Source: Oscillospiraceae bacterium (lineage in GTDB: Bacteria; Bacillota; Clostridia; Oscillospirales; JAAYXM01). From it: 64,000 nucleotides of DNA. Shown one piece after another: positions 4,026-49,395 of this stretch. Under the pieces are notes generated by a model that did not search any database, was not told where the DNA came from, and saw only the letters and a program-made list of their open reading frames with translations. Made by a program: the position numbers and the translations under genes. Numbering within the stretch: position 1 is the stretch's first letter; the number at the start of each line of letters is the position of its first letter. The stretch spans positions 58,568-122,567 of the forward strand of contig SVLF01000001.1 in the NCBI GenBank assembly GCA_015068085.1, in the 5' to 3' direction.

Positions 4026-5330
4026 ATGAAAAAATTTGCAGAAATCGTTGACGTCGTAGGACGTCAGGTCATCGACTCCCGCGGCAATCCCACGGTTGAG
4101 GTTGATGTTTATGTTGACGACGGTGTCAACACATACATGGGCCGTGCGGCTGTTCCGTCCGGTGCATCCACAGGTATCTTTGAAGCTTGCGAGCTTCGCG
4201 ACGGTGACAAGTCTAAGTTTATGGGCAAGAGCGTTTACAAGGCTGTTGATGCTGTAAACAACGACATTGCAGAAGCAATCATCGGTATGAACGCTCTCGA
4301 TCAGGTTGAAATCGACCGCACAATGATCGAGCTTGACGGCACACCGAACAAGACAAAGTTTGGCGCAAACGCTATCCTCGGTACTTCTATGGCTGTTGCA
4401 AAGGCAGCTGCAGAAGCTCTCCAGATGCCGCTTTACACATACATCGGCGGCGTAAATGCTAAGACTCTTCCGGTTCCGATGATGAACATCCTCAACGGTG
4501 GTGCACACGCATCCAACAACGTTGACATTCAGGAATTCATGATCATGCCGGTTGGCGCACCGAGCTTCTCTGAAGCACTTCGCTGGTGTACAGAAGTTTT
4601 CCACAACCTCAAGAAGGTTCTCAGCGAGATGGGTATGACAACTGCTGTCGGCGACGAAGGCGGCTTTGCTCCGAACCTTAAGAAGGATGAGGACGCTATC
4701 AAGGTTATCCTTGACGCTGTTGAGCGCGCAGGCTTCCGTCCGGGCGATGACTTTATGATCGCTATCGACGCTGCATCCTCTGAGTGGTATCAGGAAGACG
4801 GCACATACCTCCTCCCGAAGGCAAAGAAGAAGATGACAAAGCAGCAGCTCGTAAACTACTGGAAGAACCTCACAAGCAAGTACCCGATCATCTCCCTCGA
4901 AGACGGCGTTGCAGAGGAAGACTGGGAAGCATGGGGCATGCTCACAAAGGCTATCGGCTCTAAGGTTCAGCTCGTTGGTGACGACCTCTTTGTTACAAAC
5001 GTTGAGCGCCTCTCCAAGGGTATTGACCTCGGCGTAGGTAACTCCATCCTCATCAAGGTTAACCAGATCGGCTCTCTCACAGAGACTCTCGATGCTATCC
5101 AGATGGCTAACCGCGCAGGTTACACTGCTGTTGTTTCCCACCGCTCCGGTGAGACTGAGGATACAACAATCGCTGACATCGCTGTTGCTCTCAACGCAGG
5201 TCAGATCAAGACCGGCGCACCGAGCCGTACAGACCGTGTTGCAAAGTACAACCAGCTTCTCCGCATTGAGGAAGAGCTTGGCGACAGCGCAATCTACCTC
5301 GGCAAGAAAGCATGGTTCAACCTTAAGTAA
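4026..5330 (+). CDS. eno: Enolase
   Basis: Dehydrates 2-phosphoglycerate to phosphoenolpyruvate. The 434-residue protein has the usual start (VVGRQVIDSRGNPTVEV), the capping-loop region GRAAVPSGASTG, a catalytic region around GDEGGFAPNL and metal ligands in SLEDGVAEEDW and LVGDDLFVTN. The signature LIKVNQIGSLTETL and SHRSGETED complete the active site. AAGGAG at 4012-4017 is the ribosome site. The last 41 bp of the coding sequence, the stop and the following terminator are repeated at 6945-7044 beyond the AbiE genes. The protein itself is full length. Confidence 0.97.
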   Translation: MKKFAEIVDVVGRQVIDSRGNPTVEVDVYVDDGVNTYMGRAAVPSGASTGIFEACELRDGDKSKFMGKSVYKAVDAVNNDIAEAIIGMNALDQVEIDRTMIELDGTPNKTKFGANAILGTSMAVAKAAAEALQMPLYTYIGGVNAKTLPVPMMNILNGGAHASNNVDIQEFMIMPVGAPSFSEALRWCTEVFHNLKKVLSEMGMTTAVGDEGGFAPNLKKDEDAIKVILDAVERAGFRPGDDFMIAIDAASSEWYQEDGTYLLPKAKKKMTKQQLVNYWKNLTSKYPIISLEDGVAEEDWEAWGMLTKAIGSKVQLVGDDLFVTNVERLSKGIDLGVGNSILIKVNQIGSLTETLDAIQMANRAGYTAVVSHRSGETEDTTIADIAVALNAGQIKTGAPSRTDRVAKYNQLLRIEEELGDSAIYLGKKAWFNLK

Positions 5331-5391
5331 GAACCAACTGAATAATAAAACTTTATCGCCTCCTGCAATTTGCAGGAGGCGATTTTGTGTG
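5290..5391 (+). repeat. Direct repeat, copy 1: 3' end of eno plus terminator
   Basis: This 102-bp segment matches 6945-7044. Positions 5290-5345 are identical to 6945-7000 (56 bp: the last 41 coding bases of eno and 15 bp beyond). There follow 6 unmatched bases against 4, then 17 identical bases, one mismatch and 22 identical bases. About 95 positions match in all. Copy 1 is joined to the intact eno gene. Beyond copy 2 lies the convergent antiporter gene, so copy 2 looks like the ancestral eno end and copy 1 looks like the end brought in with the AbiE insert. Confidence 0.95.
5356..5386 (+). terminator. Intrinsic terminator of the glycolysis operon
   Basis: A 12-bp perfect stem (TCGCCTCCTGCA paired with TGCAGGAGGCGA) with a 3-base loop is followed by TTTT. 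It starts 26 bp after the eno stop and is part of the repeated eno tail. Confidence 0.9.
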
Positions 5392-5420
5392 GTATGGAGG
5401 GGAGGACTTACAAAAAACTA

Positions 5421-5459
5421 TATACAAATACACTAAACTATGTTATAATATGTAGTGTA
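5421..5459 (+). promoter_or_regulatory. AbiE promoter with flanking inverted repeat (candidate autoregulatory operator)
   Basis: TATACA (5421-5426) and TATAAT (5444-5449) are 17 bp apart, with TG one base before the -10. A 7-bp inverted repeat, TACACTA at 5429-5435 and TAGTGTA at 5453-5459, encloses the -10 box. AbiEi-type antitoxins are known to repress their own promoter by binding inverted repeats, so this is a natural operator. Binding here is inference. Confidence 0.65.
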
Positions 5460-5481
5460 ATTGTATGAGGTGGTGTTTAGA

Positions 5482-6075
5482 ATGACGCATATTGAAAAAG
5501 TTAGAAAAATTATGGACGAGCATAACGGTGTTGTTACCTCTGCTATGCTTACCAAAGAAGGTATACCGAGATTGTATTTAAAACAGCTGTGTGACCGCGG
5601 AGAGCTGGAATTTGTCAGTAGGGGAATTTATGTCAGCAGCAATGCTTTTGAAGATGAAATGTATATTTTGCAATGCAAATATTCAAAAGGAATTTTTTCA
5701 CACGAAACAGCGCTGTATATACACGGATATTCTGACCGAACGCCGGCAAAATATACTATGACATTTAATTACGGATATCATTCTGCCTCTCTTAAAACAG
5801 AAAATGTAATTGCCAGATATTCTGTGGCAGATGTTTATAATTTAGGAATTACACAGGCTAAATCTCCTTGCGGAAACAATATAGCAATTTACAACATTGA
5901 AAAAACGCTGTGTGATATTGTTAAGGGAAACAATGCCTGCGATGTTCAAATTGTAAACGCGGCTATGAAAAAATACGCGCAGAGCACAGAAAAAAATATC
6001 AATTTACTATTTGAGTATGCTGAAAGGTTAAAGGTAAAGAAAAAAATACTAAACTATATGGAGGTGCTGCTGTGA
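5482..6075 (+). CDS. abiEi: AbiEi-family antitoxin / transcriptional repressor
   Basis: A 197-residue protein with an N-terminal winged helix (residues about 5-50, with TSAMLTKEGIPRLYLKQLCD and RGIYVSS) and the AbiEi C-terminal region (HETALYIHGYSDRTP, NIEKTLCDIVKG). In the AbiE type IV toxin-antitoxin system this protein neutralises the effect of AbiEii without known direct binding and represses the operon. The ATG at 5482 is preferred to an upstream TTG because AGGTGGTG stands just before it. Codons are AT-rich (many AAA, ATA, AAT), unlike eno on the left and the antiporter on the right. It overlaps abiEii by 4 bp, the usual TA layout. Confidence 0.86.
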   Translation: MTHIEKVRKIMDEHNGVVTSAMLTKEGIPRLYLKQLCDRGELEFVSRGIYVSSNAFEDEMYILQCKYSKGIFSHETALYIHGYSDRTPAKYTMTFNYGYHSASLKTENVIARYSVADVYNLGITQAKSPCGNNIAIYNIEKTLCDIVKGNNACDVQIVNAAMKKYAQSTEKNINLLFEYAERLKVKKKILNYMEVLL

Positions 6076-48865: not shown

Positions 48866-48866
48866 A

Positions 48867-49169
48867 TTAGTTTTCCTCCTCAGGTTCTACAAAATCAATT
48901 ATTAATCTTTTGCCTAACCCATCGGCTAATCTCTGTAAAATTTGCAGACTTGGAACATTATGTCCGTTTTCAAACTTACTGATACTTGCCTGCGGAATAT
49001 TGGTTTTCTTGGATAATTCTTTTTGAGAAATGCCAAGCTCTTTTCTGACATCAGTTAATAACTGCTTTACTTCTTGTGCGATATCGTATTCGGGAATAGA
49101 TACTTCTGCGGTATTATCAATTTTGATTTTAGGTAAACTCTGTTTCAAGAAATTTTTAAAGTCACTCAT
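48867..49169 (-). CDS. XRE-family regulator of the ATPase/TOPRIM operon
   Basis: A 100-residue protein with a C-terminal Cro/CI helix-turn-helix (residues about 35-90: VRKELGISQKELSKKTNIPQ, then ASISKFENGHNVPSLQIL). This layout resembles HigA-type antitoxins. First gene of the minus-strand operon, directly upstream of the ATPase. It most likely represses its own promoter at 49195-49223; TTGCAA words repeat there. It could instead be an antitoxin-like restraint on the effector. Confidence 0.84.
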   Translation of the reverse strand: MSDFKNFLKQSLPKIKIDNTAEVSIPEYDIAQEVKQLLTDVRKELGISQKELSKKTNIPQASISKFENGHNVPSLQILQRLADGLGKRLIIDFVEPEEEN

Positions 49170-49194
49170 AAGAATTCCCCTTTCTTTGAATTTG

Positions 49195-49223
49195 ATTATA
49201 CACTATATTATGCTCAATTGCAA
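49195..49223 (-). promoter_or_regulatory. Promoter of the XRE-ATPase-TOPRIM cassette
   Basis: On the minus strand TTGCAA (49218-49223) and TATAAT (49195-49200) are 17 bp apart. TTGCAA is itself a palindrome and recurs at 49234-49239, giving possible repressor contacts. Confidence 0.68.
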
Positions 49224-49344
49224 CAAAAATATTGCAAATTTAATATATTTTACGAAAAATATTCCCGTGAACACATATTGTAGTTGTTGGCAAAATGAGC
49301 TTGCTGTTATGATCGGATGGTTGTATATGTTGAAAGTTGTAATT

Positions 49345-49395
49345 GCAAACGGCGCCGTATCATCCGCCGCGGCAAACGAATTTCTTGCAGGATAA
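49345..49395 (+). repeat. Direct repeat, copy 2: orphan 3' end of the SLH gene
   Basis: Encodes ANGAVSSAAANEFLAG and a stop, in frame but without the rest of the SLH gene. It is 32/32 identical in its core and 45/51 identical overall to 46878-46928. The copies are 2467 bp apart. A terminator different from the one after copy 1 follows. This is probably the ancestral end of the SLH gene, left behind when the cassette arrived with a replacement end. Confidence 0.9.

Follow-up and report, generated by a model that had tools for sequence, protein, structure and literature searches.

Gene-tail repeats bracket a minority of defence-type cassettes in an Oscillospiraceae genome and in other genomes

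Two compact defence-type inserts in a 64,000-nucleotide stretch of an Oscillospiraceae bacterium genome (GenBank assembly GCA_015068085.1, contig SVLF01000001.1, positions 58,568 to 122,567; hereafter the window) are each bracketed by direct repeats of the 3' end of the gene that precedes them. The first insert is an AbiE pair located between two tails of the enolase gene (eno), and the second is a PDC-M38 module located between two tails of a gene for an SLH-domain protein. Further examples have been found in the same genome, and in other genomes remnants of gene tails lie beside AbiE or PDC-S01 cassettes. The tail-bracket signature is rare and real, and marks an enriched minority of defence cassettes. 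Direct observation covers the tail duplications with their differing lengths, the variety of host genes, the in-frame stops that remnants carry and the excess of the signature near defence units. The defence roles of the cassettes are putative and have been assigned from family matches. Many defence genes move with no recombinase in view. If tail-bracketed cassettes are a true minority footprint of this movement, they would mark recent events, show their borders and make the manner of movement testable.

The AbiE and PDC-M38 inserts of the window

In case A, the host gene is the enolase gene (4026..5330, + strand), which is named from its translation and is kept to its stop in 7 relatives. Its tail and terminator (5290..5395, + strand, hairpin at 5355-5383) recur on the same strand at 6945..7048 (hairpin at 7008-7036), as identified by repeat comparison. 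Positions 5290-5345 and 6945-7000 are identical over 56 nucleotides (nt) (100% identity, spacing 1,655), and the repeat continues as 5352-5395 and 7005-7048 with 95% identity. In a gapped alignment the two parts form a single 106-nt repeat of 94% identity that spans the enolase tail and its terminator. All 6 non-identical columns lie outside the coding part, and 4 of them form one block; the chance of such a distribution is ~0.01 if the six arose as independent events, and only ~0.1 if there were three. The enolase tail is matched in 8 of 9 family genomes, and two copies are present only in the genome studied here, the site itself not being comparable among the relatives.

Between the enolase tails, an AbiEi-like antitoxin gene (5461..6075, + strand; PADLOC AbiEi, 4.8e-69; listed with a TTG start, with an in-frame ATG at 5482) is adjacent to the gene of an AbiEii-like nucleotidyltransferase toxin (6072..6917, + strand; PF08843, 3.7e-40; PADLOC AbiEii, 7.1e-105). 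The adjacent AbiEi and AbiEii proteins place the pair in AbiE, with a predicted toxin-antitoxin/phage-exclusion activity. A promoter-like site, TATACA-17-TATAAT, precedes the pair (5421..5449, + strand; consensus match only). On the far side of the second tail lies the convergent Na/H exchanger gene nhaP (7060..8694, − strand; PF00999). The insert is AT-rich, with a G+C content of 36% compared to 52% for eno and 50% for nhaP.

Case B follows the SLH-domain protein gene (45792..46928, + strand; PF00395, E 1.6e-4). The gene-attached tail (46878..46934, + strand) ends in NEFLER with a TAG stop and is followed by a hairpin from 46933. The remnant tail (49345..49401, + strand) is in frame, ends in NEFLAG with a TAA stop and has its own hairpin at 49410-49457, so that each copy precedes a different hairpin. 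The repeat comprises the last 51 nt of the coding sequence and 6 nt more; the resulting 57 nt are 86% identical (97% in the first 39 nt) with a spacing of 2,467.

The cargo of case B is encoded on the − strand and consists of a helix-turn-helix (HTH) regulator (48867..49169; PF01381), the AAA_15-type ATPase PDC-M38A (47753..48865; PADLOC, 4.5e-104) and the DUF3226/TOPRIM-like protein PDC-M38B (47019..47756; PADLOC, 6.6e-79). The M38A ATPase adjoins M38B, and the module is therefore assigned to the candidate defence module PDC-M38. PARIS (AriA/AriB) has been considered and rejected: the ATPase matches AriA (6.8e-19) far worse than PDC-M38A, and AriB is absent among the 8 partner families listed. 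A promoter-like site of the module, TTGCAA-17-TATAAT, is located at 49195..49223 (− strand; consensus match only). The convergent gene encodes an AraC-type regulator (49531..50379, − strand; family search). The G+C content of insert B is 36% compared to 50% for the SLH gene, and that of the neighbouring AraC gene is 41%.

Much of what a preliminary description of the window had said of these inserts is borne out. Both follow a + strand gene that faces a − strand gene, both are surrounded by direct repeats of the host gene's 3' end, and the host genes and cargoes of the two cases are unrelated. A visible recombinase is missing as described: a family search found no recombinase domain in the inserts' five open reading frames (ORFs), shorter ORFs being left unscanned. 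The compact defence-type module with its own promoter was confirmed in its first part; the promoters are consensus-like sites, and the number of promoter-like matches is not above that in shuffles (9 compared to 6.3 +/- 2.7, and 11 compared to 9.3 +/- 3.6).

The repeats of both cases stand well apart from the background. The repeat score has been defined as the score of the best ungapped repeat between both flanks of a unit (500 nt in the genome studied here and 600 nt in other genomes), with a threshold of 18. Case A scores 56 and case B scores 36, compared to scores of 8-12 in 786 of 812 controls (ORFs or ORF pairs from 920 kb of the genome). The eno tail and the SLH tail are each present in exactly two copies in the 3.17-Mb assembly, with no third copy, and the repeats are therefore not dispersed elements.

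Further brackets and their frequency around defence units

The genome of study (G000) is an assembly of 3,172,811 bases in 145 contigs and is 88% complete. A self-comparison of 919,923 bases of it, the 64-kb window included, yields two more clear tail/terminator brackets, C and D, both around PDC-S01 ATPases. In case C (L035, contig C8), the hairpin after a phosphomannomutase-like gene (1975-3480, − strand) is present twice with 40 identical nt, and has no other genomic site at up to 3 mismatches; the cargo is an AAA_14/DUF4143 ATPase, which corresponds to PADLOC PDC-S01. In case D (L080, contig C13), 35 nt around the stop of a serA-like 2-hydroxyacid dehydrogenase gene (4436-5656, − strand) recur at 2572-2606, where the second copy adjoins a strong terminator, and the cargo is another PDC-S01 ATPase. 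The serA-like tail repeat is found only at its own pair within the ~1.0 Mb examined. All four clear tail-type brackets (A, B, C and D) thus hold PADLOC candidates. L203 (22 nt) is below the standard of a clear case, and L212 (46 nt, 87%, with similar terminator hairpins) is not clear either, its paired hairpin core being found at that locus only (~1.0 Mb).

Three new cases in other genomes have been identified by their translated tails: L113 (PDC-S01), L172/L237 (AbiE) and L185/L228 (AbiE). The araC-like gene of L113 ends in ...YRKAMKIELR-stop, and the remnant across the cassette ends in ...YRKAMNS-stop, in frame, beside a hairpin and adjoining a convergent gene read as galK. The L172/L237 bracket is formed by the tail of a rubrerythrin-like gene, and the L185/L228 bracket by the tail of a gene ending in VAEEYTEAE. 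As with enolase, the names of the araC-like, rubrerythrin-like and phosphomannomutase-like genes have been read from translations. For the cases of G089 (L172) and G152 (L185), sister-species searches returned paralogue information or, in 1/4, only the genome itself. In L185 (306-620), a run of short AAGCTATGACC/AAGCTACCCCCC-type repeats separates the gene tail from the AbiE cassette.

Other brackets in these genomes were detected as nucleotide repeats. L109 has a 25-nt tail repeat with identical copies. In L145 (3306-5230) and L149, which may represent one event, a PDC-S01 cassette has a tRNA-Met gene on one side and, on the other, an imperfect repeat of that gene's 3' end. In L177, a 48-nt repeat brackets AbiE at a 5' side. 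Across all cases the repeats range from 25 to 137 nt, and the targets differ: eno, SLH, serA-like, the terminator of the phosphomannomutase-like gene, araC-like, rubrerythrin-like and others.

The frequency of such repeats has been compared between defence units and controls. The genome of study has 14 DUF4143 genes, 13 of them testable, and 4 of these 13 reach the threshold of 18, compared to 10/807 controls (p = 3.5e-5). This number includes one member seen beforehand, since the family was picked after the bracketed L204 had already been seen; without L204 the count is 3/12. Five defence-type units had been removed by hand from these controls (812 to 807), and 14/812 score at least 18 if they are retained. 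L213 was left out as a contig end cuts the locus. In the other genomes, the counts are 3/40 compared to 4/353 for AbiE and 4/69 compared to 3/356 for PDC-S01, or 7/109 compared to 7/709 when pooled (p = 0.001). L261, which is among the three AbiE units, is no tail case, as its AbiE lies between two similar coding-looking fragments, and it was nevertheless counted in the score test. The score of L109 in the control test comes from a tandem second cassette, from which its 25-nt tail repeat is separate. At a threshold of 25 the signal is weaker, with 2/13 compared to 8/807 (p = 0.01) in the genome of study and 4/109 compared to 4/709 (p = 0.014) in the pooled other genomes.

The translated-tail test, in which the last 28 residues and the stop of the facing gene are sought in the same direction across the unit, is more discriminating. 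A score of at least 50 is reached by 5/133 facing genes of defence units and by 1/1,481 controls, and a score of at least 60 by the same number, 5, and by 0 controls. Without cases A and B, the latter comparison is 3/129-131 to 0/1,481 (p = 5e-4). Scores of 35-42 (L153, L101, L256, L116 and L155) appear chance-like on inspection and have been rejected. The preliminary description had proposed a candidate class of tail-bracketed defence inserts, and this idea is supported in part and survives the comparison: further cases are present in the genome and beyond, and their frequency is unequal to that around ordinary genes, defence cargo being enriched.

The AAA_14/DUF4143 genes of the PDC-S01 cassette at ~90% or more protein identity were found at 449 loci, of which 80 were kept (L090-L169); 76 were tested in the repeat scan (4 with short flanks dropped), and 69 units remained in the flank-repeat control comparison after 11/80 loci had been dropped. 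By record title, the loci range from Lachnospiraceae and Oscillospiraceae to Pyramidobacter, Succinivibrionaceae and Aeromonadales, and belong to several phyla. They are conserved as far as the stop codon, and on the 5' side conservation fades at ~130 nt ahead of the start. These limits suggest a functional border (promoter and gene), and look unlike a recombination end. PDC-S01 is a single-gene cassette that has apparently spread widely and recently, with promoter and stop codon as its borders. The conserved promoter region of PDC-S01 genes (e.g. L109:3930-4000) holds two or three copies of a motif close to ATAAAAATGTGATT, which is possibly an operator for self-regulation. In L109 (4001-5974), two PDC-S01 cassettes occur in tandem, and the locus end cuts the second.

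Origin of the duplicated tails

Based on these observations, we propose that the cassettes were captured by homologous recombination through a gene end, with incoming DNA carrying the cassette beside another allele of the tail. We assign a probability of roughly 0.38 to this reading. A circle could have recombined in the conserved tail, where one crossover would keep both tails; alternatively, a linear piece could have been homologous at one end and joined illegitimately at the other. If the donor belonged to the same species, the two tails would be identical; if it belonged to another lineage, or if the tail came from a paralogue, they would be diverged and each would end in a stop of its own. 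Such events would persist under selection, since they leave the host gene intact. The remnants that are in frame and carry their own stop look like second alleles or paralogues, and not like decaying duplications. The codon changes between copies (synonymous:nonsynonymous) are 3:2 for SLH, 2:1 for L113 and 8:1 for the rubrerythrin-like L172. The copies in case B, L113 and L172 thus behave unlike passively decaying noncoding DNA, which fits two joined alleles or paralogues. The confinement of the enolase differences to noncoding columns, the variety of target tails and the translated-tail excess also count in favour of capture. Repeated homologous capture at gene ends, which the preliminary description had offered as one option, is the best fit to these data; no empty site was found, and a crossover in a conserved tail is what we infer as the origin of the present state.

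Several observations weigh against homologous capture. Neither an empty site nor a donor was found. Relatives share the block up to eno (7 compared) and up to SLH (4 compared), and the DNA alignment ends at the stop of the host gene, so that the ancestral site is unreadable. Most cassettes lack a tail repeat, the score being below 18 in 37/40 AbiE units and 65/69 PDC-S01 units, and the class can therefore claim an enriched minority signature only. The L185 remnant has codon changes of 2:5, as neutral decay would give. For the identical copies of C, D and L109, a plain target duplication is just as good an explanation. The gene-attached SLH tail looks like the form of the genus, which leaves the direction ambiguous, and the hairpin near the gene-attached copy of L113 may be the cassette's own terminator. 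In G089 (L172), both the gene-attached rubrerythrin-like tail and the stretch downstream match the sister species and the remnant is of a paralogue type, so it is the remnant that may be the foreign part.

Insertion with a long, variable target duplication is also quite possible, although short of probable. Here a break or stalled fork at the gene end would capture foreign DNA, and repair would copy 25-110 nt twice, the site often being near a terminator hairpin and selection leaving only those inserts that keep the gene whole. The identical copies in C (40 nt), D (35 nt) and L109 (25 nt) and the 2:5 ratio of L185 are what such an event predicts, and the repeats of B, D and L109 end 0-8 nt from a hairpin foot (the loop of the last being too long for the terminator scan). 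Such a pattern has been reported for restriction-modification genes. On the other hand, a target duplication accounts poorly for the SLH copies with their separate stops and hairpins and for the mostly synonymous changes in SLH, L113 and L172, and leaves the paralogue-type tail in G089 unexplained. It is rather unlikely that the brackets are coincidences with no common insertion mechanism, formed by the tails of paralogues, remains of older genes or similar-looking terminators in variable spots where defence genes happen to settle. The paralogue-type L172 remnant would suit this explanation, as would the other bracketing repeats of the sample, which are operator-like, paralogue, insertion sequence (IS) or 5S rRNA repeats. 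AbiE alone at a score of 25 is not above controls (2/40 compared to 3/353, p = 0.083), and PMC2884548 reports that in three species 10-18% of the small variable segments have flanking repeats, mostly <30 bp. Against coincidence stand the uniqueness of the eno, SLH and terminator C repeats to their own pairs genome-wide (serA in ~1.0 Mb) and the excess around defence units in both the flank-repeat and the translated-tail tests.

A trans-encoded tyrosine or serine recombinase that integrates the cassettes at gene 3' ends serving as attachment (att) sites, the other mechanism offered in the preliminary description, is very unlikely. Repeats of gene 3' ends are typical of integrase islands, and the genome has 6 PF00589 matches in about 5 genes. 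The tRNA-Met arrangement of the PDC-S01 cassette in L145/L149 is the sole pointer to an integrase-type site, and is a hint only. However, different tails and repeat lengths occur within one cassette family, and their variation from case to case argues against one site-specific recombinase. No shared end sequence was seen among the PDC-S01 loci, and the eno and SLH tails each occur just twice in the whole genome. A genome-wide tail search found neither tail beside any of the genome's tyrosine recombinases (serine recombinases not searched), nor was the same attachment sequence found genome-wide at several elements or beside an integrase for eno, SLH or the case C hairpin. The shared trans-acting recombinase is thus disfavoured. 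A common integration machinery is likewise unsupported, as the tails, their lengths and their divergence vary, most AbiE and PDC-S01 units have no repeat and no eno or SLH tail is found elsewhere.

An extension of homologous capture would treat gene tails as portable docking sites. The two tail copies of a recombinase-free cassette would recombine, releasing a tail-plus-cassette circle from its host, and RecA would dock this circle at the same gene end in another strain or species. We consider this extension unlikely; if it were true, ordinary gene ends would be a general landing system for defence genes across strains and species.

Relation to known systems and other repeats of the genome

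Integrase-dependent islands and cis-mobilisable elements at gene 3' ends keep the host gene whole by a second copy of the 3' end. The tail-bracketed cassettes share the host gene left intact by a second 3'-end copy, but differ in that no integrase and no common att were found and that one cassette family has several targets. Minimal mobile elements of Neisseria are small cassettes swapped between two conserved genes. They resemble the cassettes described here in size and in their presumed spread by homologous recombination in flanking genes, but the relatives compared show no conservation on the downstream side of the present inserts. Insertion of restriction-modification genes with long (variable) target duplication was reportedly described by Nobusato in 2000 and by Furuta in 2010.

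In PMC1643837, 'insertion with long target duplication' in Helicobacter pylori is often tied to restriction-modification genes, and 'long and variable target duplications' are described in PMC3031569. The compact defence-type cargo, the long direct repeats of variable length and the lack of a recombinase are alike, long flanking direct repeats of variable length being present here as well. The cargo differs, as it consists here of AbiE, PDC-M38 and PDC-S01, and no restriction-modification cargo was found by family search in the inserts examined. The repeats described here also centre on gene 3' ends and several copies look like two alleles rather than one duplicated target. Long variable target duplication, which is known but unexplained, covers much of the pattern already, with the cargo and the focus on gene tails as differences.

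The small variable segments between direct repeats described by Touzain 2010 (PMC2884548) are alike in arrangement. Those repeats are mostly <30 bp and the segments carry any cargo; here the repeats of the clear cases are mostly 35-137 nt (one of 25 nt), lie at gene tails and surround defence-type cargo. Homology-facilitated illegitimate recombination appears to be the topic of PMC3240628. Among the literature matches listed, in which subscription journals are thinly covered, no paper describes tail-bracketed AbiE, PDC-M38 or PDC-S01 cassettes.

The self-comparison also returned brackets that have been set aside by position, sequence or family search. The L077 bracket contains an rve integrase and is IS-like, that of L085 (227-760, contig C19) consists of two tandem 5S rRNA genes 417 nt apart, and that of L041 is formed by small paralogues around citrate synthase. 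Repeats inside ORFs or repeated-domain regions were found in L030, L031, L034, L036, L038, L057, L060, L066 and others, and further such pairs in L067, L071, L072, L075, L079 and L087. The 62-nt repeat of L031 and the three 38-nt repeats of L056 are operator-like and lie upstream of operons. These imperfect 38-62-nt repeats (L031:8215-11772 and L056:10736-18130) precede sugar-type operons, and one set adjoins an AraC gene.

Two other repeats bracket genes without being of the tail type. In L088 (259-2383, contig C22), a DUF3990 and HTH pair (PADLOC PDC-M42-like) is bracketed by 228-nt repeats of 94% identity whose sequence is like that of an AbrB-type gene in its 5' part. In L068 (283-3652, contig C140), a 154-nt repeat of 98.7% identity in a leader-like position surrounds VanY-family, PHP and HAD genes, and has no Rfam match at the gathering threshold. 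Two further repeats were seen in the sample: a 49-nt repeat (L035:12414/12878) surrounds an ORF of 103 residues that has no family match, and a 30-nt repeat (L080:6914/10017) surrounds a glycoside-hydrolase-like gene and an AraC gene. Two Rfam matches have been found in the window: a skipping-rope RNA at 27577-27659 (− strand), and a Gut-1 RNA at 18822-18889 (+ strand) after a cluster of five tRNA genes.

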